A DNA stretch of 64,000 nucleotides from Streptomyces sp. NA02950 (GTDB taxonomy: Bacteria; Actinomycetota; Actinomycetes; Streptomycetales; Streptomycetaceae), in the NCBI RefSeq assembly GCF_013364155.1, contig NZ_CP054916.1, positions 3,902,501-3,966,500 of the forward strand, given 5' to 3'. Positions within the stretch are counted from its first letter, which is position 1. The number at the start of each line of letters is the position of its first letter. This document shows positions 12,008 through 26,156 of the stretch, piece by piece. The notes below the pieces were generated by a model. That model made no database searches, had not been told where the DNA came from, and saw only the letters and a list, made by a program, of their open reading frames with translations. The position numbers were made by a program, and so were the translations under genes.

Positions 12008-14036
<2,029 letters not shown>

Positions 14037-14138: not shown

Positions 14139-14165
14139 CTGGCACTCCGTACTGCCGAGTGCCAG
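14139..14165 (-). promoter_or_regulatory. CIRCE operator 1 (HrcA site) of groES
   Basis: Perfect inverted repeat CTGGCACTC-N9-GAGTGCCAG, matching the CIRCE element (TTAGCACTC-N9-GAGTGCTAA) in spacing and core. It overlaps the predicted transcription start of groES. HrcA is the known repressor of this element; hrcA is not in the window. Confidence 0.92.
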
Positions 14166-14170
14166 CCTCG

Positions 14171-14199
14171 ACATTATGACGCGGTTAGCACTCAGTCAA
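14171..14199 (-). promoter_or_regulatory. groES-groEL1 promoter
   Basis: Minus strand: -35 TTGACT (14199-14194), 17-nt spacer, -10 TAATGT (14176-14171). The -35 lies in the spacer of CIRCE 2 and inside the AICE attachment core (14191-14210); the start point falls in CIRCE 1. Hexamers and spacing fit a principal-sigma promoter. Confidence 0.85.
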
Positions 14200-14211
14200 C
14201 TAGAGTGCCAG
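14185..14211 (-). promoter_or_regulatory. CIRCE operator 2 of groES, overlapping attL
   Basis: On the plus strand TTAGCACTC-N9-GAGTGCCAG. Nineteen of its 27 bp, including the last three bases of the left arm, the whole spacer and most of the right arm, belong to the AICE direct repeat. The outer base at 14211 now comes from the element (G); at attR the chromosomal continuation has A, so the uninterrupted operator would read TTGGCACTC-N9-GAGTGCTAA on the groES strand, closer to consensus. Confidence 0.88.
14191..14210. repeat. attL core (20-bp direct repeat) of the AICE
   Basis: CTCAGTCAACTAGAGTGCCA, identical to 25101-25120 in the same orientation, 10,910 bp apart. It borders the integrase end of the element. 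It contains the groES -35 hexamer, so recombination re-creates the promoter on this side. Confidence 0.93.
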
Positions 14212-14221
14212 GCGAACGGTG

Positions 14222-14259
14222 GGTGCCCCCACCAGCGCACTAGCGCCGGTGGGGGCACC
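14222..14259 (-). terminator. int terminator / insulator of groES
   Basis: Perfect 12-bp stem (GGTGCCCCCACC at 14222-14233, complement at 14248-14259) between the int stop and attL. Since int and groES are read in the same direction, this hairpin should stop int transcription from running into the groES promoter. Confidence 0.75.
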
Positions 14260-14261
14260 GC

Positions 14262-15524
14262 TCATGCTGCCTGGGCCGTCTCTGGGCCGTCTCTGCCCTG
14301 GTCAGGCCACTGGAAGAGCTTATCGACCGCCCGCCGCGTGCGCGCCTGACTGCTCGGCATCAGGTGCGCGTACACCCGGAGGGTGAGCGCGGGATCGGCG
14401 TGCCCCAGGTACTCACTCACGGCCCTGATGCTCTCCCCCGCGTCCAGCAGCACGGAGGCGTAGAAGTGCCTCAGCGCGTGCATGCCGTGTTCGCGGGCCG
14501 AGGCGTACCGCTCCCCCCGCTCCCGCTCCGGGATGACCCCCGCGGCGACCAGAGCGGGTTTCCAGGCGTCCACGTTGAAGTTCTCCCGGCGGACCGCGGT
14601 ACCGCTCGGAGTGGTGAAGATCAGTCGATGCGTGACCGGTGGCCCGTCCGGGCGCAGCCACGGCAGGGTGACGGGGGTCGGAGGATTGACCTCGGCGTGC
14701 TGACGCACGGCGTCAGCCACCGCACGGGGCAGCGGTACGTCCCGAATCTTGTTGCACTTGGGCGGGGCGAACACTGGCTTCCCCCGGACCAGCTTGACCT
14801 GTCGCAGAACGTGCAGGGTCTCGCCCTCGAAGTTCAGGGCGTCCGCGGCCACGCCGAAGACCTCCCCCTGCCGCAGCCCGCATCCGGCGGCAAGGTCGAC
14901 CATGGGCCGGAAGATCTCAGGCAGTCCGTCCCGCACCGCGAAAACCCGATCAGCCTCCCAGGGGACAAGCCGCTTCGGCTCGATCGCTGGCGCCCGGACG
15001 GTTCCGGCGTCGCACGGGTTGCGGTTCAGGTGACCGTCGTCCACAGCGGCCGACAGCAGGGCACGAACGTTCGCGTAGATCGTGCGACCGTAGGAGCCAG
15101 CCACCCCGGCCCGCTCCAAGGCGTGGACCCAATCCCGGATGTGTCCGGGCTGGAACGAACCGAGCGGGCGCGAGCCGAGGTACGGGTAGGCGTGCCGCCG
15201 GAGCCGCATCTCGACCATGTCGCGGGTGCTCACGTTCGTCGTCTGCGAGGCGTGCCACTTCTCCGCGTACTGCCGGAAGGTGATCCGTCCGGCCGTCGGG
15301 TCGATGTACTGCCCGCGCGACATGTCGGCCTCGATGTGGGCAAGCCACTGGTCGGCGAGCCGCTTCTGTTTGTCGGGGAATGACTTGCTCTTCTCGGTGC
15401 CGTCGGGGCCGATGTAGCGGGCGCGGTAGCGCATGCCGGTGCCGTGACGGTCGGTCTTGACGCGGCGGGCTTTGCCGTCGGCTGTCTCGGTCTTGTACCA
15501 GCGGTCTTGGATGTGGCCTGCCAT
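14262..15524 (-). CDS. int: Tyrosine recombinase (AICE integrase)
   Basis: A 420-residue phage-type integrase. Residues about 1-60 form an AP2-like arm-binding segment, about 85-165 a SAM-like core-binding domain, and the rest the catalytic domain. The catalytic residues are visible: Arg218 (CGLRQGE), His349 and Arg352 (HALRHF), the GHADP segment, and nucleophile Tyr385 (LRVYAH). It catalyses recombination between attP and the groES-promoter attB. It lies downstream of xis by 90 bp, with a strong hairpin in between, so its expression may be attenuated. Confidence 0.95.
   Translation of the reverse strand: MAGHIQDRWYKTETADGKARRVKTDRHGTGMRYRARYIGPDGTEKSKSFPDKQKRLADQWLAHIEADMSRGQYIDPTAGRITFRQYAEKWHASQTTNVSTRDMVEMRLRRHAYPYLGSRPLGSFQPGHIRDWVHALERAGVAGSYGRTIYANVRALLSAAVDDGHLNRNPCDAGTVRAPAIEPKRLVPWEADRVFAVRDGLPEIFRPMVDLAAGCGLRQGEVFGVAADALNFEGETLHVLRQVKLVRGKPVFAPPKCNKIRDVPLPRAVADAVRQHAEVNPPTPVTLPWLRPDGPPVTHRLIFTTPSGTAVRRENFNVDAWKPALVAAGVIPERERGERYASAREHGMHALRHFYASVLLDAGESIRAVSEYLGHADPALTLRVYAHLMPSSQARTRRAVDKLFQWPDQGRDGPETAQAA
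14273..14291. repeat. 19-bp repeat near the left end (copy 1)
   Basis: GGGCCGTCTCTGGGCCGTC, itself two copies of an 8-bp GGGCCGTC unit with a 3-bp gap, lies in the last codons of int, 62 bp inside attL. The same 19 bp occur in the same orientation at 24974-24992, 108 bp inside attR. Candidate arm-type binding sites for Int or Xis. Confidence 0.55.
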
Positions 15525-15556
15525 GGAGGCTGTGGTCCCTTCGCGCGTGCATGGGA

Positions 15557-15586
15557 GCGGGGCGGGGCCGTGTGGCCCCGCCCCGC
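15557..15586 (-). terminator. Hairpin between xis and int
   Basis: Perfect 13-bp GC stem (GCGGGGCGGGGCC, loop GTGT, complement) filling the xis-int gap. It could terminate or attenuate transcription from xis into int, or block the int ribosome site. Confidence 0.55.
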
Positions 15587-15614
15587 GGCGTGGGTGGTTG
15601 GGCTGTGTCTGTGG

Positions 15615-15854
15615 TCAGGCAGCGACCGAAGCTGCCTTGCGCTCCCGGACGTAGCGATGGACGTCGGCAGGGTCGTAGCGCAGGTGCTTGCCGATCCGGA
15701 AGCCGGGCGGGCCGAGGCGCTTCTTGCGCCACTGGTAGACGGTCTCCTTGGGCACCTCGAAGATCTCGGCGATGTCGTCGGGGGTGAGGTAGCGGTCCGG
15801 CAACCCGGCGCGGAGCGTGGCGCGCGGGTCCGGCTGTTCACGTGCGGTGCTCAT
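15615..15854 (-). CDS. xis: Excisionase (helix-turn-helix, Xis)
   Basis: A 79-residue small DNA-binding protein with a MerR/excisionase-type winged HTH: YLTPDDIAEIFEVPKETVYQWRK, then the conserved wing (FRIGKHLRY) and DVHRYV helix. Such proteins sit directly upstream of AICE integrases and direct excision by bending DNA near att. Start ATG at 15854; stop 90 bp before int. Confidence 0.9.
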   Translation of the reverse strand: MSTAREQPDPRATLRAGLPDRYLTPDDIAEIFEVPKETVYQWRKKRLGPPGFRIGKHLRYDPADVHRYVRERKAASVAA

Positions 15855-16321
15855 GACGTGTCCTCCGTGCGCGGGCGCGGGTCCTGTTTCGGGGGTCTGC
15901 GCCTGTCCGAGGTGCGGATTTCTGCGTCATCGCGTCACGCACGTCATTTGCGGTTCTGACCTGCGGTTATGCGGTGACGCGGGCAGCTCGGGGCGTGTCA
16001 CAGGGCGGGGCGGGGTTCTGTCACCCGTGACGCGGGTGACGCGGGATGACGCAGGTTTGGCCGTCTGCGTCACCGCTGTAGCCGCTGGTCAGGGACCGGG
16101 TTGGGGTGGCTGGTGACGTGGGTGACGCAGGGTCTCTTCTCTTAGGAAGAGAAGAGGGGGTGGTGTCTGTGGTGGTGCGGTGCTGCTCAGGACGTGAAGA
16201 AGGAGCCGCTTCGCGGCGCGTCTTGTGCAGCGGCGGCAAGCCGCCGGAACAGCAAGAGGAGCACCGCCCAGGCGCGGGGTGCTCCTCTTGCTTGTGCGGT
16301 GTGGCGCCGTGGTGGCGCGGG
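15855..16321. other. Gene-free, repeat-rich region; candidate replication origin
   Basis: 467 bp without a convincing gene. Eight exact copies of TGACGC or its complement lie at 15925, 15933, 15976, 16028, 16037, 16047, 16067 and 16123, with two variants (15942, 16114), three of them spaced 9-10 bp like iterons. Next comes a 9-bp palindrome (CTCTTCTCT-N5-AGAGAAGAG, 16134-16156). Being beside rep, it may be the plasmid-phase origin or a regulatory region for xis; this is inference. Confidence 0.5.
16251..16292 (-). terminator. rep terminator
   Basis: Perfect 15-bp stem (AGCAAGAGGAGCACC at 16251-16265, complement at 16278-16292) 30 bp after the rep stop codon. Confidence 0.8.
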
Positions 16322-17797
16322 TCAGAACGCCGTTTCCTGCTCGTTCGGTGGCGGGAGCGGGGGTCGGGTCATCTCGATGTAGCGGGCGGCGCTGGTGCGG
16401 CCCCAGTCGATGAGGACGCCGCGTGCGGCGAGGGTCGGCTGTAGCCGCTTGAGCCGGTCGGAGAGGACCTTGCCGGTGGTGGGCCAGCCCTTGGGCAGGG
16501 GACGGCACTCCTCGCCGCTGTAGAGGCCGGTGAGGCAGTGCAGCCACTCCGAGGACGACATACGGACTTCCGCGCCCGCATCGAGCCCGGCGGCGTGCTT
16601 CAAGACCGTCTGCGCGAGGAGGTCTCCTTCGATGACGTCGTCGTTGAGGTCATCGAGGCTGGCCCGGTACGCGGCCAGCGAGCCGAACCCGGTAGCCGCA
16701 TCGAGTTGCGCGCACAGGTGGGCGAAGTCGGCCATCCGCAGGTCGGTGGGGGTCTCCGCCTCGGCGGCCCGCACCTTCACTGTCAGGTCCAGCAGGGAGC
16801 CGAGAACTACCGGCAGGATCTCCGCGTACTCGGTCCACAGCTCTGCCTCGGTCCGCCGCACCCGGGGCCGCACGAGACGGAGCGGGAGGAGACGTTCAGC
16901 GAGGTCCGGGCGGATGACGCCGACGTCGATGCCGGTCAGCAGCATGGGCCGTCGGTAGCGGGAGCGGACGACGTCGCCGTCGGTGAAGAGCGCGCGCTTG
17001 ATGCTCTCGGCGCCGGTCACGATGCAGCACATGAGGTCGGACAGGTCCGGGGGCAGGTGGGAGAGGTTGTCCAGGGCGGTGACCCATCCGGCGGCGACGG
17101 CCGTGATCATGTTCTCCTCGTCCTTCGGCGCCCGGCGCAGGTCCCCGCTCATCCCCTCGATGATCCGCACGAGCATCCGGCCGCCGGTGGACTTGCCCGC
17201 CCCCTGGGGGCCGGTGAGGAACGGCGCGGGCACGGGCACGGACGGCTCCAGGCAGCCGATCAGCCAGGCGATGGCCAGGCACTCGGTCTCTGCGCTGGCG
17301 AAGTTGCACAGACGGAGCAGGAGATCGATGCCCTTGCCGTTGGTGTCCTTGTCGGGCAGGGGGAGTTCGCCGGTGAGCTGGGTGCGCCGCCAGCAGACTT
17401 CCCGCGGGTCGGGGGTGAGGATGTCCCAGCCGGTGGGGTGGATGCGGACGGACTTGCCGTCATCGCGGCCCAAGTCGAGCCACGTCGCGCCGTCGAACCC
17501 GGGGGCGACGCGGATGTGGGTGGGCTGTACGTCCTCGGTCAGCGCGAGTGCTTCGATCAAGTCCAACGCCTCCTTGAGTGCCGTGCCGTTGAACACGCCG
17601 ACCCCGTCCCTGAAGAGGCCGACCATGAGTTCCTGCCGGTGGCTCCCCGTCGTGCCCTGGGAGCGGATCGGACGGGCCACGGGGTGATCATTCCTCTGCG
17701 CGTACACGGTGCCGTCGATGGTGCGGAAGTACCGGAAGTGCGCTTGCGCGTAGTCGGTGATGACCTCGCGGGCCGGAGTCTTCTCGTCCTCGGACAT
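16322..17797 (-). CDS. AICE replication protein, P-loop helicase/ATPase type
   Basis: A 491-residue P-loop ATPase. The Walker A is GPQGAGKST with Lys202; a Walker-B-like ALDNLS follows about 50 residues on, and the pattern resembles the helicase of virus or plasmid D5-type primase/helicase pairs. The C terminus looks like a small DNA-binding module. It starts two bases after the prim-pol stop codon (TAG CC ATG), so translation is coupled and both should act together in replication of the excised circle. Similar proteins are called Rep in AICEs; no rolling-circle (RepSA) motifs are seen. Confidence 0.8.
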   Translation of the reverse strand: MSEDEKTPAREVITDYAQAHFRYFRTIDGTVYAQRNDHPVARPIRSQGTTGSHRQELMVGLFRDGVGVFNGTALKEALDLIEALALTEDVQPTHIRVAPGFDGATWLDLGRDDGKSVRIHPTGWDILTPDPREVCWRRTQLTGELPLPDKDTNGKGIDLLLRLCNFASAETECLAIAWLIGCLEPSVPVPAPFLTGPQGAGKSTGGRMLVRIIEGMSGDLRRAPKDEENMITAVAAGWVTALDNLSHLPPDLSDLMCCIVTGAESIKRALFTDGDVVRSRYRRPMLLTGIDVGVIRPDLAERLLPLRLVRPRVRRTEAELWTEYAEILPVVLGSLLDLTVKVRAAEAETPTDLRMADFAHLCAQLDAATGFGSLAAYRASLDDLNDDVIEGDLLAQTVLKHAAGLDAGAEVRMSSSEWLHCLTGLYSGEECRPLPKGWPTTGKVLSDRLKRLQPTLAARGVLIDWGRTSAARYIEMTRPPLPPPNEQETAF

Positions 17798-17799
17798 GG

Positions 17800-18672
17800 C
17801 TACATCCCCAGCGCGGCACGGGCGTTGGCCCACGCGTCGACACAGTGACGGGCGGATTCGCCCTTGGCCTGGGCAGCGCTGAACAGTCGCGCCATGTGGG
17901 CCTCGGTGAGGCAGCCGCACCGGCCGTGCGCAGACAGCACCGCCAGGAACGTGCGGTACACCGTTGCGTGCACCGCGCTGCGGGCCTCCGTGATGCGCTG
18001 CTCCGCCATGGCGATACCGCGTTCCAGGTAGACAGGCGTGCGGTGGCGGCACTCCCCGCCACCGCCCAACGCGGCCACGGTGACGACGTGCGGGCGCCGG
18101 GCCGGGGAGGGTTCTTTCACGGCGAGTGCGCGCACCTCGTCGGGCAGGGTGGTCATGGTGCCGGTGCCGGGGCCGAGCCAGCGGGCGTAGGACATGCGCG
18201 ACTTGATGTCCACCTCGGGCCGGACCTTGTTGGCCGAGGTCATGGCGCCGCGGTAGATCCAGTGTTCACCGCGGGTCGTCGGCACGATCCGGGTGGCGGG
18301 CAGGGTCTGGCGGGCCCAGGCGACGGCTGCTGTGTCGTCGAGGTCCACCACGGTCAGCCGGGCACCGCCGGGGTGGTAGGCGACCGTCACGGCCTCCCGC
18401 CACGCCGACGCCCATGCGGGCGAGGCGATGACGGACGGATCGGTGGTGGCGGCGGCCCACGCGTGACAGGGACCGGGGCACTGGCAGGGACCCGCGTCCT
18501 TCATGTTCGGCCGCCCGCCACAGGCGACGGCCGCGCAGGTGCGGCAATTCCCGAACGGGACCTTGCCGTGCCGGAGGGGCAACACCGGCAGACCGGCCGC
18601 GGCTAGCTCCAGCGCGGTCCGCAGGGGCGACAGGGCGGGAGGGTCTCGCCGGATGACGGCGGGTTGGGTCAT
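17800..18672 (-). CDS. Bifunctional DNA primase/polymerase (prim-pol)
   Basis: A 290-residue protein with the N-terminal prim-pol (AEP) domain. It begins with the ALELAAAGLPVLPL motif, then a Cys-rich segment (about residues 40-70, CRTC...CQCPGPC) that may bind zinc, the catalytic metal motif VDLDD (about 115) and a downstream RGEHWIYRG stretch. AICEs with such a gene replicate with it instead of RepSA. The terminal 80 residues are helical and not recognised. Transcribed with the downstream rep. Confidence 0.87.
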   Translation of the reverse strand: MTQPAVIRRDPPALSPLRTALELAAAGLPVLPLRHGKVPFGNCRTCAAVACGGRPNMKDAGPCQCPGPCHAWAAATTDPSVIASPAWASAWREAVTVAYHPGGARLTVVDLDDTAAVAWARQTLPATRIVPTTRGEHWIYRGAMTSANKVRPEVDIKSRMSYARWLGPGTGTMTTLPDEVRALAVKEPSPARRPHVVTVAALGGGGECRHRTPVYLERGIAMAEQRITEARSAVHATVYRTFLAVLSAHGRCGCLTEAHMARLFSAAQAKGESARHCVDAWANARAALGM

Positions 18673-18711
18673 GCTGGATGTCCTCCAGTTCTGTGGAATG
18701 AGCGGGAGACC

Positions 18712-18747
18712 GGGGCGGCCGTGACTTTGGCGAGAGACGGCCGCCCC
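18712..18747 (-). terminator. Hairpin between tra and prim-pol
   Basis: 11-bp stem (GGGGCGGCCGT at 18712-18722, complement at 18737-18747) in the 257-bp gap between the transfer gene and prim-pol. It is nearly the same sequence as the hairpin before tra (21141-21182), so the element carries a repeated terminator. The rest of the gap (18750-18929) is C/G-rich with no gene seen. Confidence 0.65.
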
Positions 18748-18929
18748 AGCCGTATTCAGGGGCTGAGAGGGGTACGGGTGCGGGGTGCTGAGCCCCCTCT
18801 AGGGGGCGCTACTTCGCAGGTCAGGTCCCTCTACCGGGGGGATCTACTGCCGTAGTGACCCCCCGCTACCCGCGCATGCCGGGTAGACCCTGTTCGGCGG
18901 GGGCCGGGTAGAGGGGGGAGGGTCTACGG

Positions 18930-21098
18930 TCAGACCTCGCGGGCGGCGAGCAGGAGCTCTTCGGGCACTGCGGCTTCGAGGTCGGCGCGCCGGTATCCGG
19001 CGAGGTTCTTGCCCTTGATGTTGACCTGCTTGGTGGTCCGCTTGACCCCGGCGTCTTCCAGCTCACGGGCGAGCCGTTCGAGGTCCCAGTCCCCGTACCG
19101 GTCCTCGTCGGCGTTGACGAGCCGGTTGAGCAGGTCAACGCTGTGGAGCCGGTCGGAGTGACGCATCACGTCCAGGCAGTCCGAGAGCACCGGCGCGATG
19201 GCCAGCCCGGCCTGGCTGGCCGCGGCCGCCACGTCCCCGGCAGCATCTCCGGTGATCTGCCCCAGCGGCTCGCGCAGCGCACGGCCCTTGAGGCACAGGG
19301 CGTTGAACTCGGTTGTGGTGAGCAGGTCGTTCTTCACCGTGGCGTACGAGGCCGGACCGGTGACCAGCACCGTGACGCCTTTGTGTTCCTCCGACAGCAG
19401 CGAGGCATCCGCACCCATGGCGGCCTTTCCCGATCCGAGCACCATGTCCGAGCTGGTCTTGTCGGTGACCTGGGTGCAGCACCGGATGGTGATGATCTCC
19501 CGCAGCTTGGTGGGCACGCTCTTGGCGTCCGGGCGCTGGCTGGCGTAGTTGGAGATGAACCCGGCGGCCGGACCACGCCGCGCGATCCTGCCCAGGTCGT
19601 CCACGACCGCCTCACGGTCCTTGTCGTCCATGGCCAGGAACGCTTCCTGCAGCTCATCGACGGTCAGGAAGATGAACGGCAGCTTGTACTTCTCGATGAT
19701 CTGCGGGGTGAGCTTGCCCTCGGGGCAGATCGAGGTGGGCAGGCCGCGGAAGAGCGCGAAGCGGCGTTCCATCTCCGCGAGGAGTTCGGTGAGCATGGCC
19801 TTGAACGCATCGATCGCGTCCTCCTCGGCACCGAGAACGAGGCGGTGGGCGACGTGCCGCATGCCCATCCAGTCCTGCCCGCCCTTGAAGTCGGCCACGT
19901 AGTGCTTGACCCACGGGTCGAGCAGCCCAGCCGCGGTCATCAGGCGCTGGGTGAAGGTCTTGCCGCGGCGCGGGAGTCCGCCGAAGAACATCGACTGCCA
20001 CACCACTGGCACGCTGATGCGGTTGCCGCGGGCGTCCTGCCCGAACGGCACCGGGTCCCAGATGGAGAACCGGTCCATCCCGGCGAGCGGGGAGGGGTTG
20101 GGGTCGGCCAGGTAGGGGTCGTCATCGGCGACCCACATCGACACGCGCCCGGCGTTGCCGCCCTTGGCCGCGCGGACCCGGGACATGATGACCTGGATCT
20201 CATCCACCCCCAGCTCTTGAGCCAGGACTTCCCGCTTGGCCAGCACGTCCGAGGCGGTTTTGCCGCCCCCGCGAGGGAGGTCGAAGACCACAGCCCAGCC
20301 GCGGCCGTCACGGACCGGCCCCATGACACAGGTGACTTTGGGTCCTTCCTCATCGCCCTTGCCGCTTTTCAGCAGGCCAGCGGCGCGCAGAGCGTCGTTG
20401 AGCTGCTGGGCGGACATGTCCACCCGCAGCGGCGGGGCGCACTGGTCGAGCAGGTGCGTTTCCTGCCCGCGGCCGAGGTAGGCCAGCGGGGTGACGATGG
20501 CCGCGGTCATCCCGGCCTGGACCAGCGGCGGCGCCAGGGCGATGCCGGTTGCGGCGGCGGCCACGGCGACCGCGGCGGCACCGAAGCGCCAACGGCGGGT
20601 ACGGGTCCGCTCCGCGTGCGCGGCCTGAAGCCGGACGGCCAGCTCGACGGCCTCCGGGTGGGCCTTGGACTGCGCTTTGAGCGCCTTCACGGCCGCGGTG
20701 TGGTCCTGCGCGGACAGGGTGGGCCATAGCCCGGCGCAAGCGCGGAAGAAGCCGCGGGCGGCCAGCAGCACAGCTTTCATCAGGTACTTGGGGGTGCGGA
20801 TGCCGTGGAAGCGGGTGTGCCACCACGTCAGCCGCCCCAGCGCGGTGACGTTGGCCAGCACCGAGGCGCGGGAACGGGCCCACACCGGCAGCACCGGCGT
20901 ATCCGGCACGGTCAGCCAGTCCGCAAGCGGGTTGTCCGGCCGGTCCACGGCCTCGCCCGCAGGGGACGATTCCGCCGGCACATTGGCCGGGGAGTCGGCG
21001 GACTTGACCAGCGACACCGGGAGCGCCGTAGCGGCGTCCTTGGCGGCGCGGTGGTCATCGAGGTGGTGCAGGCTTCCCATGTGGGGCGCCTCCGTCAT
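18930..21098 (-). CDS. FtsK/SpoIIIE-type DNA translocase, TraB/TraSA conjugation protein
   Basis: A 722-residue transfer ATPase. Hydrophobic segments around residues 175-205 anchor it in the membrane. The motor domain has Walker A GLPRRGKT (Lys380) and Walker B FIFLTVDE. A C-terminal winged-helix-like region (about 650-715) matches the position of the TRS-recognising gamma domain. Such proteins form a hexameric pore moving double-stranded plasmid DNA between hyphae, alone sufficient for transfer. The ATG at 21098 follows CAGGAG. Expression is expected to be repressed by the KorSA-like gene. Confidence 0.92.
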   Translation of the reverse strand: MTEAPHMGSLHHLDDHRAAKDAATALPVSLVKSADSPANVPAESSPAGEAVDRPDNPLADWLTVPDTPVLPVWARSRASVLANVTALGRLTWWHTRFHGIRTPKYLMKAVLLAARGFFRACAGLWPTLSAQDHTAAVKALKAQSKAHPEAVELAVRLQAAHAERTRTRRWRFGAAAVAVAAAATGIALAPPLVQAGMTAAIVTPLAYLGRGQETHLLDQCAPPLRVDMSAQQLNDALRAAGLLKSGKGDEEGPKVTCVMGPVRDGRGWAVVFDLPRGGGKTASDVLAKREVLAQELGVDEIQVIMSRVRAAKGGNAGRVSMWVADDDPYLADPNPSPLAGMDRFSIWDPVPFGQDARGNRISVPVVWQSMFFGGLPRRGKTFTQRLMTAAGLLDPWVKHYVADFKGGQDWMGMRHVAHRLVLGAEEDAIDAFKAMLTELLAEMERRFALFRGLPTSICPEGKLTPQIIEKYKLPFIFLTVDELQEAFLAMDDKDREAVVDDLGRIARRGPAAGFISNYASQRPDAKSVPTKLREIITIRCCTQVTDKTSSDMVLGSGKAAMGADASLLSEEHKGVTVLVTGPASYATVKNDLLTTTEFNALCLKGRALREPLGQITGDAAGDVAAAASQAGLAIAPVLSDCLDVMRHSDRLHSVDLLNRLVNADEDRYGDWDLERLARELEDAGVKRTTKQVNIKGKNLAGYRRADLEAAVPEELLLAAREV

Positions 21099-21140
21099 GA
21101 TGGTTATCTCCTGCCTGATATCGGATGCGGGCGGGTAGGC

Positions 21141-21182
21141 CCGGGGCGGCCGGTGTCCTTGGCCGGGTGACGGCCGCCCCGG
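21141..21182 (-). terminator. Hairpin upstream of tra
   Basis: 12-bp perfect stem (CCGGGGCGGCCG at 21141-21152, complement at 21171-21182) between the stop of the coiled-coil gene and the tra leader; related in sequence to the hairpin at 18712. Confidence 0.65.
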
Positions 21183-21189
21183 GGCGCGG

Positions 21190-21522
21190 CTACAGACCGG
21201 CGCGGCGGACGGCCTGTTCGGTGGCACGGGCCCGCTTCTCCGCCTGCTTGCGGGCGGCGCGGGCGGCGGTCCGGTCCTGGCCTCGCGCGGCGCGTTCGGC
21301 GGCCTTGGCAGCGGCGAGTGTGGCCTTGGCTTTCTCGTTCTGCCGGTGCAGGGCCGCGGCCTCCAGCTGGCCGCGCTCGGCCGCGCGGGCGTCGATGCGC
21401 TCAATCTGCCGCTCGAGCTTGGGGTCAACGGCATCGGCGGCGGCCTGCTTGGCGCCACGCACGATCAGCCAGGCGCGCTTGCGCTTCTCGGCCGGGGTGT
21501 AGGAGCGGAAAACGTCGGTCAC
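21190..21522 (-). CDS. Ala/Arg/Lys-rich coiled-coil protein of the AICE
   Basis: A 110-residue, highly charged protein that is almost entirely predicted helix with heptad-like Ala/Leu spacing (about residues 25-105). No domain is recognised. Small charged proteins at this place in AICEs are commonly grouped with the plasmid spread (Spd) genes, which move the element between septal compartments. Sixteen bp separate it from the upstream gene. Confidence 0.65.
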   Translation of the reverse strand: MTDVFRSYTPAEKRKRAWLIVRGAKQAAADAVDPKLERQIERIDARAAERGQLEAAALHRQNEKAKATLAAAKAAERAARGQDRTAARAARKQAEKRARATEQAVRRAGL

Positions 21523-21538
21523 AGGGTGTCCTTCCTGG

Positions 21539-22030
21539 TCAGCGGTTGCGGATGGTGGTGGTCGAGCGGCCGAACCAGCGGTTCGACACGTGGTGATGGG
21601 TCACGAACGTGTCGCCCCCGCCGCGGCGGCCGGGGGCCGCGATGGCAACACCGGCGGCGACCCCAGCGGCGATGAGGAACTGCACGAAGGAGTCCACGAC
21701 GATGGCCGCGGCCCCCGCGGCGAAGTACGCGCCCACACCGGCCCCGGCGGCGAACACGCCCTTGGCTGCGAGCCGTTGGGCTTGCGGGTCCACCCCGGCC
21801 GGGGCCGGTGCGGGGGCGGGGGCGGGGGCGGGGGTGCGGACGGTGGGCAGGTCGTCGCGGCGCACGGCCACGAAACCGCCGTGGGCGCCGGGGATGTAGA
21901 CGACCGGGCCACGCTCGGCCGCCAGTTCCACGGCCCCGCTCAGCGGCTGCTGGGCGGGGCCGTAGGGGTCGGGGGTGACCGGGTCGGGGACCGGCTCATC
22001 CGGCGGGCGGTAGGGCAGGGGCGCATTCAT
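21539..22030 (-). CDS. Spd-like membrane protein with proline-alanine linker
   Basis: A 163-residue protein: Pro-rich N terminus, a small soluble segment (PVVYIPGAHGGFVAVRRDDL, about 43-62), an Ala-Pro repeat linker (about 68-78), two hydrophobic helices (about 90-112 and 116-134) and a tail with FVTHHHVSNRWFG. The His/Asn/Trp tail followed by STTT is typical of small AICE proteins of unknown function. Its ATG overlaps the upstream stop as ATGA. Probably part of the pock/spread module. Confidence 0.7.
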   Translation of the reverse strand: MNAPLPYRPPDEPVPDPVTPDPYGPAQQPLSGAVELAAERGPVVYIPGAHGGFVAVRRDDLPTVRTPAPAPAPAPAPAGVDPQAQRLAAKGVFAAGAGVGAYFAAGAAAIVVDSFVQFLIAAGVAAGVAIAAPGRRGGGDTFVTHHHVSNRWFGRSTTTIRNR

Positions 22031-22887
22031 GCTGCCACCTCCTCAGGCTCAGCGGCTGTCTCTGTCCGCTCGGCACGGAGCGTGTCCCGCAGACCGCGCG
22101 CCTTCTCCGCAGACGTCCGGACCGCCTTCCGGATGCGTTCGGCCGTCAGCTCGTCGTCGGTCCAGTCGGCGGTGATCGACCGGGCCTCATCGAGCAGTTC
22201 GGTGGCCGTCCGCTTCGGGCGGGGAGTGCGGGCCGACTGGGGGACTTGACCGGTCGCCCGACGGGGCCGGACCGACTCCGCCGCCAAAGGCGCGGTTGCT
22301 GGTGCCGACGGGTTGGGCTTGGGCTGGTCGACCGGTCCCGGGGCTGGAAGGGGCAGCGGGTCGGCGACCGGCGCGGGCGGCTCCGGTGCCGACTCTCCCT
22401 GCTCAGACGTAGACCGTTTGATACCGCTCTCAGTCGTTTTCTCAGCATTCGTGGTTGGCTGCGGCTGGTGGTGCAGCACCTTGGCGACCAGATCCGACCC
22501 GAAGTAGATCGAGCCGACCGGAAGAGAGGTCGCCAGCAGCACCAGCACCCAACCGGCCTTGTTGAGGTCGCCCAGTCGACCGGGGTCGACCGAACCGCCG
22601 TGCAGCTCCGGCACGAGTCCGTGTACGTAGTTCAGGACGAGTGAGGCGGTGGTGTAGGCGGCCAGCACCCGCAGCGCGAACCTGCGGTCCCGGCCGGTCA
22701 GAACGAGAGCGGCGACCAGCGCCAGGGCCATCAGGCCGTCGACCACGAACGGGTACAGGGTCGCGGCCGTCGCATCGGCGCCTATGGCCGTCGACACATC
22801 CCGCAGCGCGTTCCACGAGACCCGGAACGCCATGCCGACCACGGCCACCAGGGCGAGGACGAGCAGGACCTTGGGATTGCGGTTCAC
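22027..22887 (-). CDS. DUF2637 membrane protein (SpdB2-like)
   Basis: A 286-residue protein with four hydrophobic segments in the first 150 residues (about 5-22, 43-62, 70-90 and 118-137), matching the DUF2637 domain found in plasmid spread proteins. A Pro-rich linker (about 165-225) and a basic C-terminal helical region follow. The GTG start at 22887 overlaps the previous stop (GTGA), the clearest evidence for this start. Presumably forms part of the septal cross-wall transfer complex with TraB. Confidence 0.8.
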   Translation of the reverse strand: MNRNPKVLLVLALVAVVGMAFRVSWNALRDVSTAIGADATAATLYPFVVDGLMALALVAALVLTGRDRRFALRVLAAYTTASLVLNYVHGLVPELHGGSVDPGRLGDLNKAGWVLVLLATSLPVGSIYFGSDLVAKVLHHQPQPTTNAEKTTESGIKRSTSEQGESAPEPPAPVADPLPLPAPGPVDQPKPNPSAPATAPLAAESVRPRRATGQVPQSARTPRPKRTATELLDEARSITADWTDDELTAERIRKAVRTSAEKARGLRDTLRAERTETAAEPEEVAA

Positions 22888-23192
22888 CGGGCGGCCTCCC
22901 CGTCCGGCCGCGGCTGGTCGTCCCAGGCGCGGTAGCCGGTGGGCGGGTGCTCGGCGAGCTTCTTCCGCAGGTAGGCGGCGGCCCACTTTGCGGCACCGAT
23001 CCCGGTGGGACCATCGAGGACGGTCGTGAGCGTGACGACCACACGCATGGCCCGCTCGTCCAGGACCGCGCGGAACCGCTCGGCGTCGCCGACAGTAGCC
23101 GGGGCCGGGATGTCCAGCGCCTCCACAACGGCGCGCAGCAGCGCGGCAACTTCCTCCGGAAGCGGCCCGGGAACTGGAGGGATGGTGCTCAC
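22884..23192 (-). CDS. Small conserved AICE protein
   Basis: A 102-residue soluble protein of unknown function. It is helical, with a basic segment near residue 75 (AAAYLRKKLAEHPPTGY). The GTG start at 23192 overlaps the previous stop (GTGA), and its own stop overlaps the next start, so it is translationally coupled on both sides. Confidence 0.7.
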   Translation of the reverse strand: MSTIPPVPGPLPEEVAALLRAVVEALDIPAPATVGDAERFRAVLDERAMRVVVTLTTVLDGPTGIGAAKWAAAYLRKKLAEHPPTGYRAWDDQPRPDGEAAR

Positions 23193-23458
23193 GCGCCCAC
23201 CCCCGGCACGCTCACCGAGACGGCGCGGTTGGAGAGCTCCCGACGGGCGGCCAGCACCCGGCGACGGGCCCGGCGGATACGGCGCTCATCCAGCTCCGAC
23301 ACCGGCCGGTCAAGCGTCATGATCTGCGCATCCAGCAGCTCAACCTCGGCCGTGATGATGGGCATCTCCAGTTCGATCGCGTCCAGCTCCGCGGCTGTCG
23401 GCTCGCGGTCGGACAGGTCGGCGGTAACAACCGCCTGAAGTGCGGCGATGTGGTTCAT
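23189..23458 (-). CDS. Small AICE protein (DUF6284-like)
   Basis: An 89-residue acidic-then-basic helical protein. The pattern DREPTAAELDAIELEMP followed by an RRIRRARRRVLAARREL helix matches, as far as I remember, the DUF6284 family found in Streptomyces integrative elements. First gene of the transfer/spread operon, behind a leader of more than 550 bp. The ATG at 23458 follows AAGGAA. Confidence 0.7.
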   Translation of the reverse strand: MNHIAALQAVVTADLSDREPTAAELDAIELEMPIITAEVELLDAQIMTLDRPVSELDERRIRRARRRVLAARRELSNRAVSVSVPGVGA

Positions 23459-23726
23459 GGGTCGTGGTTCCTTCCAAGGTGGGACGGCCCGAACAGCGGC
23501 GCCGGTGCTGCAACACCGGCGCCGCCCCACCGCCCGGAGTCCGGTAGGTCCGGCTCCCCCCGACCCCGCCCGTACGGGGCACCGCGCACGGCGGCCCGGA
23601 CGGGCGGAGGAGGCAACCGGCCGCAGCACTGGACGCTGCGAAGCCAGAAGAGGCGTAACCGGGCTTCACCGGTGCGCCGTTGCCACGGAGCACCGGTCCC
23701 GAGCCGGGAAGTCGGGTGCGTCATCG

Positions 23727-23834
23727 TCACTGCTCTGACGCCAGCAGGGCGGCCGTGTGCCAGGTGGAACCCGAGGGGTTGACCTCCAGGAATGAAGGGA
23801 TGATCCACACGGGCGTTCTCCAGAGCTGACACAC
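23727..23834 (-). CDS. Possible 35-residue leader peptide
   Basis: A short open frame from GTG 23834 to TGA 23727. The sequence (MCQLWRTPVWIIPSFLEV, continuing NPSGSTWHTAALLASEQ) has varied, non-repetitive composition with three Trp, unlike the random translations of neighbouring GC-rich frames. No clear ribosome site. It could be a regulatory leader peptide or a real small protein; it may also be chance. Confidence 0.3.
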   Translation of the reverse strand: MCQLWRTPVWIIPSFLEVNPSGSTWHTAALLASEQ

Positions 23835-24031
23835 GAGCAAGGTGTGCCGCCGACGGCCCTTACCCGGCCGCCGCAGGGGCAGGGACTCACACCCCGCCAA
23901 TTCAAAGATCACTGTTGAGTTCTTAAGGAGCGAGCGCTTCCTTTCACCCCCTTGTGAAGGGCTTCCGGGCGCCTCAGGAGCATCCGCGCATGCCGGATAA
24001 GCCCCCTGAAGGGCTCCCGGGCGGCGAACCT

Positions 24032-24071
24032 CCCTAGGGATATTTCTCCCACACATCCCTAGGGAGGTCAA
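24032..24071 (-). promoter_or_regulatory. Candidate KorSA-type operator pair and promoter of the transfer operon
   Basis: Two copies of the palindrome CCCTAGGG (24032-24039 and 24057-24064), 25 bp apart, stand directly downstream of a TTGACC hexamer (24071-24066) on the minus strand. A third copy stands in front of the repressor gene. Shared rare palindromes at both places are the expected signature of a repressor operator. Confidence 0.55.
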
Positions 24072-24083
24072 CGGGATATGCGA

Positions 24084-24110
24084 AAGGGGCCCGCCGATGG
24101 CGGGCCCCTT
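24084..24110 (-). terminator. Terminator of the GntR repressor gene
   Basis: 12-bp stem AAGGGGCCCGCC, 3-nt loop, perfect complement, 22 bp after the stop; on the minus strand it ends in TTTC. Confidence 0.8.
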
Positions 24111-24132
24111 CGGGTTGAAGTTGTGGCTGTGG

Positions 24133-24870
24133 TCAGCCGGTGACGTGGTACTCCATGACGTACACCCCGGCATCCAGCAGCATTCTGTTGACCTCGACCG
24201 GCTTGCCTTCCACGGTGAGCGCCGTGCGGTAGATCTCCACCACGGGAGTCCCCTCAGCCAGGTGCAAACGCTCGGTCTCGTCCTGGCTGGGCATCCGTGC
24301 GCGCAGCTCTTCCACAAAGCGGACTGGTTTGGCGCCCAGCTCGGCGAGACGCGCGTACGTACCTCCGGGCCCGGTGTCCTCCTGGGCGATGGCCGACTCC
24401 CTCACGAGGTCGGCCGGAAGGTACGAGACGGCTGCCTGCACCGGCTCACCTTCGACAACGAACAGCCGATCGCGGATCACCACGGGTGCGCCATCTTCCA
24501 GACCCAGCGCGCGAGCCACGTCGTCCGGCGCCAGAGCCTCATAGACACGCAACCCGGTGACCGTCATGGGCCGCTCACCGATGTCGGCACTCCAGATGGA
24601 GCGGCCTTCGGTCCACCCCTCCTGTGCGAGTCGCCGGTTGGCGACGCGCCGGATGGGCTGGAACTCCCGGACGTACGTGCCACTACCCCGGCGACGGACG
24701 GCCAGCCCCTCGGTCACCAGAAGGGTCAGAGCCCGTCGGGCTGTCTCCTTGGCGACCCCGTACTGCCGCACGAGGGCAGGCTCGCCAGGGAGTCGGGCGC
24801 CGGGCGCCAACGCGCCCGAGCGAATGCGCTCCCGCAGATCGTCGGCGATCTGCTTGGCGGTCTCCGCCAT
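24133..24870 (-). CDS. GntR/UTRA transcriptional regulator, KorSA-like repressor
   Basis: A 245-residue GntR-family protein of the HutC subfamily. The N-terminal winged HTH (about residues 5-70: PGEPALVRQYGVAKETARRAL, then VRRRGSGTYV) is followed by a UTRA ligand-binding domain ending near residue 240. In pSAM2 the homologue KorSA represses the transfer and activator genes (kill override). The ATG at 24870 is preferred over the adjacent TTG; GAGGG lies upstream and a CCCTAGGG palindrome 14 bp upstream, implying autoregulation. Confidence 0.88.
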   Translation of the reverse strand: MAETAKQIADDLRERIRSGALAPGARLPGEPALVRQYGVAKETARRALTLLVTEGLAVRRRGSGTYVREFQPIRRVANRRLAQEGWTEGRSIWSADIGERPMTVTGLRVYEALAPDDVARALGLEDGAPVVIRDRLFVVEGEPVQAAVSYLPADLVRESAIAQEDTGPGGTYARLAELGAKPVRFVEELRARMPSQDETERLHLAEGTPVVEIYRTALTVEGKPVEVNRMLLDAGVYVMEYHVTG

Positions 24871-24883
24871 CAAGCCCTCACTT

Positions 24884-24891
24884 CCCTAGGG
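24884..24891 (-). promoter_or_regulatory. CCCTAGGG palindrome before the repressor gene (copy 3)
   Basis: Third copy of the 8-bp palindrome, within CTTCCCTAGGGTGGTC, 14 bp before the start codon. Candidate autoregulatory operator. Confidence 0.5.
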
Positions 24892-24973
24892 TGGTCTCTC
24901 TACCAGCTTGGCATACGTCCGGCGGCTGGCCCCTGACAGGGGAGTCACCAGAGCGCCACTGGGCCCGCTCCCC

Positions 24974-24992
24974 GGGCCGTCTCTGGGCCGTC
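24974..24992. repeat. 19-bp repeat near the right end (copy 2)
   Basis: GGGCCGTCTCTGGGCCGTC, identical and co-oriented with 14273-14291. Here it lies in non-coding DNA, so its conservation is not explained by the int reading frame. Candidate arm-type recombinase site. Confidence 0.55.
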
Positions 24993-25034
24993 CGAGGGTG
25001 GCCCAGGACGACCAACAACGACCAACAACGACGA

Positions 25035-25087
25035 CACCGCCCCCGCTGAACAGCGAGGGCGGTGCGCCTTTCCCGGCTCGGGGAAAG
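25035..25087. terminator. Terminator-like hairpins at the right end of the AICE
   Basis: Stem CACCGCCC (25035-25042) with GGGCGGTG (25057-25064), with an inner CGCT/AGCG pair, followed at once by a second hairpin CCTTTCCC/GGGAAAGG (25067-25087). Together they would block transcription entering the element from the chromosome or leaving it. A short tandem ACCAACAACG repeat precedes them (25011-25030). Confidence 0.55.
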
Positions 25088-25100
25088 GGAGTCGTCAGTC

Positions 25101-25120
25101 CTCAGTCAACTAGAGTGCCA
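25101..25120. repeat. attR core (20-bp direct repeat) of the AICE
   Basis: CTCAGTCAACTAGAGTGCCA, identical to attL. To the right the chromosome continues AAGCGACG, the former upstream flank of the groES promoter. The left arm of the CIRCE is missing here (preceded by AGTC rather than TTAG), so this copy is not a functional CIRCE. Confidence 0.93.
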
Positions 25121-25196
25121 AGCGACGCGGGGCCGACCTCCGGTCGACACCGCGCCGCCGTACCGCCCGGCCCGCCGGACGCGAGCCTCACAGGGC

Positions 25197-26156
25197 TCAG
25201 ACGTAGTCCTCCAGCCGCGCGACCGTGAACCCCTGCTCCTGGATCGTCCGCACCAGGGACGTGATCATGTCGGTCATGGACTTGCCCTCCAGCTGCTCCG
25301 GGCCGCGGAAGTGCGCGAGCACGATGTCCCCCGGCTGGAGGCTGCCGCCGGACCGGTAGACCAGCCCGCGCGGCTCCATCTCGGCGCGCCACAGCACCAC
25401 CGTCTGCGCCCCGCAGTCGGCCGCCGCGCGCAGCGTCGTCTCGTCGTACTCGCCGTAGGGCGGACGGAACAGCCGCGGCTGGCGGCCGAGGTGGGTGCGG
25501 ACGTTCTCCTGCTGGCCGCAGATCTCCTGCCGCTGGGTGTCGTAGTCGAGACCGGCGAGGCTGGGATGGGTGAGGGTGTGGTTCTCCATCGGGTTGCCCA
25601 GCCGCTGGAGCTGGTCGAAGTAGTCGTAGTGGTCGCCGATCACGTTGTCGGTGAGGAAGCCGGTGAACGGCAGACCGAGATCACGGGCCTCCTCCACGAA
25701 GCGCGGATCCTTCTCGATGCCGTCGTCGATCGTCAGGAAGACCACCCGATCGGTGGTCGGGACGCGCCGGATGACCGGCGGCAGCCCTTCGCCGGTCGGC
25801 TCCTCCGGGGCGAGCTGCGGTTTGGCGGCGGGGGCGGGCGGCGGCCGGTCCAGCGGCCGGTCCAGACCCCACAGGCGGTACGCCTCGGGGTCGCCCGAGG
25901 GGGCCGAGCCCGACGGGCCGGACGTGCCCGAGACCGTTCCCGATCCCGGGGGAACCGGCGGCCGGGAGTGGCCCGGAAGCGGCGGGGTGGGTGAACGCCC
26001 CGCGGTCCGCGGCGCGGATGACGCCGTCGCGGTGTCGCTGTCCACGGTGGTCCGGGCGAGCGGACCGGAGCCCTCGAGGCTTCCACAGCCCGTGAACACG
26101 GCCGCCGCGGCGGCGAGAACCAGATACCTCGAAAGCCCAGATTTGATCATTGTCAT
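25197..26156 (-). CDS. Polysaccharide deacetylase lipoprotein (NodB homology domain)
   Basis: A 319-residue secreted lipoprotein. The N terminus has a signal peptide ending in the lipobox VFTGC (Cys about 25), then a long Pro/Ser/Gly-rich linker and a NodB-type CE4 domain from about residue 125. The motifs are FLTIDDG (catalytic Asp pair), ENHTLTHPSL (metal histidines), FRPPYGEYD and IVLAHF. It should deacetylate peptidoglycan or another extracellular GlcNAc polymer. Start ATG 26156 or 26150, both giving a valid signal peptide. It is the chromosomal neighbour of groES now separated by the AICE. Confidence 0.9.
   Translation of the reverse strand: MTMIKSGLSRYLVLAAAAAVFTGCGSLEGSGPLARTTVDSDTATASSAPRTAGRSPTPPLPGHSRPPVPPGSGTVSGTSGPSGSAPSGDPEAYRLWGLDRPLDRPPPAPAAKPQLAPEEPTGEGLPPVIRRVPTTDRVVFLTIDDGIEKDPRFVEEARDLGLPFTGFLTDNVIGDHYDYFDQLQRLGNPMENHTLTHPSLAGLDYDTQRQEICGQQENVRTHLGRQPRLFRPPYGEYDETTLRAAADCGAQTVVLWRAEMEPRGLVYRSGGSLQPGDIVLAHFRGPEQLEGKSMTDMITSLVRTIQEQGFTVARLEDYV

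Follow-up and report, generated by a model that had tools for sequence, protein, structure and literature searches.

The window analysed here, a stretch of 64,000 nucleotides from Streptomyces sp. NA02950 (contig NZ_CP054916.1, positions 3,902,501 to 3,966,500), contains the groES-groEL operon and, directly upstream of it, a 10.9-kb mobile element of the type of the actinomycete integrative and conjugative elements (AICEs). We consider it very probable that the tyrosine integrase of this AICE recombines its own attachment site (attP) with a chromosomal site (attB) that consists of the -35 box of groES and the distal one of two CIRCE operators (controlling inverted repeat of chaperone expression). 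The locus comprises the following chromosomal features and attachment cores, attL and attR being the left and right ends of the integrated element:

12008..13633, minus strand: groEL of the groEL1 type with a His-rich tail, downstream of groES (NCBIfam GroEL, open frame)
13728..14036, minus strand: groES (NCBIfam GroES)
14139..14165: CIRCE 1, proximal to groES and outside the repeat (from the sequence)
14171..14176, minus strand: -10 box of groES, TAATGT, 17 nt from the -35 box
14185..14211: CIRCE 2, the distal operator, which holds the whole attachment core; base 14211 is derived from the element
14191..14210, plus strand: attL core, 20-bp direct repeat, which on the minus strand carries the -35 box TTGACT (14199-14194)
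25101..25120, plus strand: attR core, 20-bp direct repeat, with a minus-strand -35 box that lacks a -10 box
25197..26150, minus strand: polysaccharide deacetylase-type gene, the chromosomal neighbour beyond the empty site (NCBIfam hits that do not reach the named models' cut-offs)

The sequence CTCAGTCAACTAGAGTGCCA is present at 14191-14210 and 25101-25120 as an exact 20-bp direct repeat without mismatches, and the spacing between the two copies is 10,910 bp. No further match with up to three mismatches exists in the window, none was obtained in 100 dinucleotide shuffles, and the exact core occurs twice in the whole genome; the repeats of the original prediction are hence exact as well as unique in the window. 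The copies differ in the base that follows the core, position 14211 being G and position 25121 being A. The promoter that leads into groES is read on the minus strand and consists of TTGACT (14199-14194), a 17-nt spacer and TAATGT (14176-14171). CIRCE 2 (14185-14211) reads TTAGCACTC-N9-GAGTGCCAG, and its 27-bp frame encloses all 20 bp of the core, not 19 bp as previously proposed. Measured against the CIRCE consensus arm, the operator at attL retains 9/9 and 7/9 positions, the right arm of the inferred attB, which carries the base of the attR side, reaches 8/9, and the operator is broken at attR (left arm 6/9, right arm 8/9). The inferred attP is a half-operator only (6/9 and 7/9 against the same arm). 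A CIRCE dyad that serves Int as a symmetric core site was considered and is unsupported, the inferred attP arms TCAGTCCTC and CTGGCACTC agreeing in 4/9 places.

Empty sites in relatives support the groES promoter with its CIRCE operator as attB. The exact core is found in 17 of 392 Streptomyces genomes, and in 15 of them it lies contiguous and empty at groES, whose start is 154-158 bp away. This is the uninterrupted attB that the original prediction expected in strains lacking the element. In nine of the 15 empty sites a deacetylase motif is located across the core from groES, and in two (L039, L040) the next ten bases, AGCGACGCGG, are identical to the attR side of the window. The two filled exact-core genomes are the present one (G000) and S. 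pathocidini NRRL B-24287 (G008), which shows the anticipated int homologue beside the same site on contig C314 and, on contig C207, a further core at 69 bp from a deacetylase stop codon. A broader pattern that covers both spacer alleles and intermediates matches 334 of the 392 genomes, and the same two genomes are the only ones with two copies; of the 58 genomes without a match, one (G026) was inspected, and its site is unoccupied and deviates from CIRCE 2 by one base. An attR-type junction with up to two mismatches was detected in one of 394 genomes of the family, namely this one, S. pathocidini being outside that sample. Viral contigs gave no match.

The conservation of the site defines what the insertion replaces. 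The alignment comprises 46 of 48 loci with 42 distinct sequences, both filled sites included; L141, whose arm is a variant, and L047, which is an attR, were removed. The motifs GCACTC, TTGAC and GAGTGC were fixed in the search, and their 100% conservation is by construction. Among the free positions, TG directly before GCACTC and TAA behind GAGTGC are conserved to 100% in the 42 distinct sequences, and a TANNNT is present 17-18 nt behind the -35 box in 46/46 groES rows. Upstream of GCACTC, conservation stays at or below 67% at every position beyond the third base (42 distinct sequences). Since this upstream DNA is unconserved between species, the insertion starts at the edge of the conserved block and the element replaces unconserved DNA only. 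The “highly conserved” target of the original prediction thus applies to the arms of CIRCE and to the type of promoter, but not to the spacer that forms the core: among 30 groES loci the spacer CGCTTGACC is found in 24/30 and TAGTTGACT in 4/30, including this genome and S. pathocidini, and the exact core, present in 17/392 genomes, represents a minority allele as judged from these sequences.

In the proposed mechanism the crossover would take place within the shared 20-bp core and bring the int end of the element next to groES. The resulting attL would keep the native -10 box and the left CIRCE arm while regaining the -35 box and an almost complete right arm, and only unconserved DNA upstream of the operator would be exchanged for element DNA. 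Both parts of the earlier claim agree with the sequence: the -35 box, the -10 box and the left CIRCE arm are intact with a single differing base (14211), and the DNA upstream of the -35 box is replaced entirely. Int would act at the groES site with little change in groES expression, and the element would still move.

The location of the entire core within CIRCE 2 raises the question of HrcA, the CIRCE repressor. The genome encodes hrcA, and a CIRCE-like match (two mismatches to the search pattern) lies some 350 bp ahead of the matched hrcA domain. The groES locus has a site of the type TTAGCACTC-N9-GAGTGCTAA, with 9/9 and 7/9 positions in the attL arms. It is conceivable that HrcA bound to CIRCE 2 gates recombination, so that Int would reach the core of attB or attL only once HrcA is released, with integration and excision favored by heat or folding stress. 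If true, excision, transfer and capture would be coupled to protein-folding stress without a heat-shock gene or promoter of the element's own. The overlap with the operator and the presence of hrcA with its site favor this scenario, but the overlap is one that any element inserted in an operator would exhibit, and attP has just a half-operator (6/9, 7/9), which leaves such gating doubtful. Further CIRCE sites were observed in this genome. A perfect CIRCE is located at G000:C1:3610228-3610251 (L001), away from groES, groEL2 and hrcA, and by eye the genes behind it look like an FmdB-type zinc-ribbon gene and a frame resembling MTA phosphorylase. Two adjacent CIRCE-like sites, the second of them imperfect, precede a second groEL (G000:C1:5311359-5311418; L003, L004).

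All listed genes of the element from int to the GntR/UTRA regulator are encoded on the minus strand:

14211..14261, minus strand: element end, strong hairpin between the int stop codon and the core, probable terminator
14262..15524, minus strand: int, tyrosine recombinase of 420 aa (Pfam Phage_integrase PF00589, 1.2e-12, 48.4 bits vs cut-off 27.1)
15615..15854, minus strand: xis, HTH_17 excisionase-like, 79 aa (Pfam HTH_17, 1.5e-12)
16322..17797, minus strand: replication-type gene that immediately follows Prim-Pol, 491 aa with a start codon of our choice (open frame; function suggested by its place)
17800..18672, minus strand: Prim-Pol, bifunctional primase/polymerase (Pfam PF09250, 5.6e-10, 40.3 bits vs 22.8)
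18930..21101, minus strand: TraB-like FtsK/SpoIIIE translocase, start position provisional (PF01580, 1.2e-6, 28.6 bits vs 24)
21190..23458, minus strand: small genes including DUF2637 (22027-22887) and DUF6284 (23189-23458) (Pfam), with a possible role in spread or transfer
24133..24870, minus strand: GntR/UTRA regulator (Pfam GntR and UTRA), with a possible KorSA-like role
25025..25100: stem-loops closing the element on its attR side (fold -47.0 kcal/mol on the minus strand, z -5.4; -43.1 kcal/mol on the plus strand, z -3.9)

The replication-type gene at 16322-17797 has no match in Pfam or NCBIfam. The AICE-defining modules of PMC3218068 are present in the window element: a tyrosine integrase, a replication module (RepSA, RepAM or Prim-Pol, here Prim-Pol) and an FtsK/SpoIIIE-type Tra protein, together with direct repeats and an empty site. 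By these modules, with xis and the GntR regulator completing the set, the 10.9-kb element is of AICE type, as originally proposed.

The transcription of int towards groES and the altered operator base would be compatible with an element that exploits or alters groES expression, by a changed promoter or by read-through from int, for its own benefit or that of the host. We regard this as quite unlikely, given the intact -35 box, -10 box and left CIRCE arm, the lack of conservation in the replaced DNA, and a strong hairpin that separates int from the promoter in each of the two filled genomes. The fold of 14195-14275 on the minus strand has -54.1 kcal/mol (z -6.3), and the int end of S. pathocidini has -55.9 kcal/mol (z -4.1), where part of the energy belongs to a second stem formed by CIRCE. 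The hairpin 3' of int probably keeps element transcription out of groES, and we claim it just for the two groES-site elements. The suggestion that the element itself is under heat-shock control is not supported: the groES promoter faces away from it, CIRCE is broken at attR (left arm 6/9), and no TANNNT follows the -35 box of the attR core at 15-19 nt. A heat-shock promoter borne by the element is ruled out, this -35 box being without anything like a -10 box.

Several observations weigh against an AICE that uses and rebuilds the groES operator. One operator base is altered (14211), the filled genomes number just two, and the S. pathocidini element is spread over two contigs that are unjoined in the assembly. 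Neither an excision product nor an att junction was seen. The hairpins carry no U-run, so that termination is only presumed, and a hairpin after int fails as a rule of the integrase family, because no more than 53 of the 110 loci surpass every one of 20 mononucleotide shuffles.

A comparison of the two filled genomes provides insight into the history of the insertions. The DNA identity amounts to 90.9% for groEL, 92.2% for groES and 82.9% for int, and xis shows 80.5% over 190 columns, where the alignment ends. Beyond xis, BLAST of the int-side contig of S. pathocidini against the window element gave no match, and contig C207 has one 57-bp match (86%) just inside attR. The gene beside attR differs from the GntR gene of the window, as read from the sequence. 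The S. pathocidini loci L059 (right part) and L047 display another backbone past xis and another attR-side gene than the window element. In the tree of groES and part of groEL this genome is the sister of eight empty genomes (100/100), and S. pathocidini branches elsewhere. The pattern suggests that an int-xis module was exchanged between AICEs, and the simplest reading of the sequences would be separate insertions of two AICEs with a common int-xis-att module. A single ancestral insertion, passed on vertically and then lost from the majority of lineages, would suit the small number of filled genomes, a divergence of int and groEL of like order (82.9% vs 90.9% identity) and an int that never occurs in more than one clade, but is improbable given a similarity that, besides the 57-bp stretch, ends within xis and the sister position of this genome to an entirely empty clade, with S. 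pathocidini placed elsewhere.

The integrase family was surveyed for its targets. Int has matches in 389 of the 392 genomes, and among the matches listed only that of S. pathocidini (86%) exceeds 70% identity. It further matches 74 plasmid records (best 63%), with no record named pSLS among the 25 of them that were listed, and 1018 phage records, every best place below 60% identity. The window contains no tRNA or tmRNA gene, hence attB is not located in one, and the 28 loci L011-L038 harbor neither the core (up to three mismatches) nor a CIRCE nor a tRNA in the stretch analysed, roughly 1.5 kb to either side as far as the contig extends. The 110 integrase loci (98 different proteins) were labelled by short motifs: glutamine synthetase accounts for 28, rlmN for 13, a phosphoglycerate-mutase-like gene for 11, miaA for three, nusG for two and groES for one. 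For every class other than groES, five in all, Pfam supports the single example that was checked. The motifs left 52 unlabelled, or 50 once L010 and L060 had been assigned to groES by their core. Pfam places L065 in the histidine phosphatase superfamily only, phosphoglycerate mutase being a reading of its sequence. Each label is confined to one clade in which unlabelled rows are included, and the three groES-site rows from two genomes form a clade with 100/100 support; according to these sequences, target choice has therefore changed several times in an integrase family that uses protein genes. At the rlmN start, the relatives L123 and L130 have a repeat that spans the ATG plus the roughly 22 bases ahead of it, with the start codon kept and the upstream DNA derived from the element. 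Three more integrases of this family with 60-67% identity reside in the present genome (G000:C1:6677603-6678859, 2774383-2775645 and 4033281-4034525), two of them with an in-frame TGA.

The locus suggests that, for a tyrosine integrase, the -35 box of an essential operon together with its repressor operator may serve as attB and be restored on insertion. The pair of filled and empty sites represents natural material on insertion tolerance and on repressor gating of a recombinase, and the integrase clades at different housekeeping protein genes make the evolution of integration-site choice testable.

Among known systems, mycobacteriophage Bxb1 has its attB at groEL1. It shares the chaperonin locus with the window element and differs by its serine integrase and the use of coding DNA. 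The groES promoter groESp of S. chattanoogensis is named as a strong promoter in PMC7460540. A literature search found no title or abstract start that describes an AICE at groES, but most subscription journals were not covered and this is weak evidence of absence; the main text of PMC9513070 contains no word beginning with groE, chaperon or promoter. According to PMC3218068, most AICEs with tyrosine integrases reside in tRNA 3' ends, the pSLS sub-family being the exception, and PMC9513070 assigns 36 insertions to tRNA genes, 14 to protein genes and one to an intergenic position, with one AICE in rlmN. The contrast with tRNA-using AICEs drawn in the original prediction is correct for the majority, but weaker than stated, as relatives of Int occupy protein genes and non-tRNA AICEs have been published; we judge the promoter and operator as attB to be the new part. 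The tRNA-using AICEs (pSAM2, SLP1 and others; PMC3218068) have the same Int, Xis, Prim-Pol, FtsK/SpoIIIE Tra and GntR modules, and their core repeats regenerate the target as here, whereas their attB is the tRNA 3' end instead of a promoter with its operator. Non-tRNA targets are shared with the pSLS integrase sub-family (PMC3218068) and with AICE03 of strain RLB3-6 in rlmN (PMC9513070), where relatives of the window integrase are also found, but AICE03 and the pSLS-type AICEs target a gene, not a -35 box and a repressor operator. The conjugative element TnGBS (PMC3942029) resembles the window element in its insertion upstream of sigma-A type promoters; it differs by a DDE transposase and by the choice of many promoters, 15-17 bp upstream of the -35 box, in contrast to one site with a core that includes the -35 box. 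The dusA-associated islands (PMC4482086) likewise use a tyrosine integrase at the 5' end of a conserved gene whose function is apparently restored by the island; there, the coding 5' end is swapped for island sequence, whereas here promoter and operator bases are restored.

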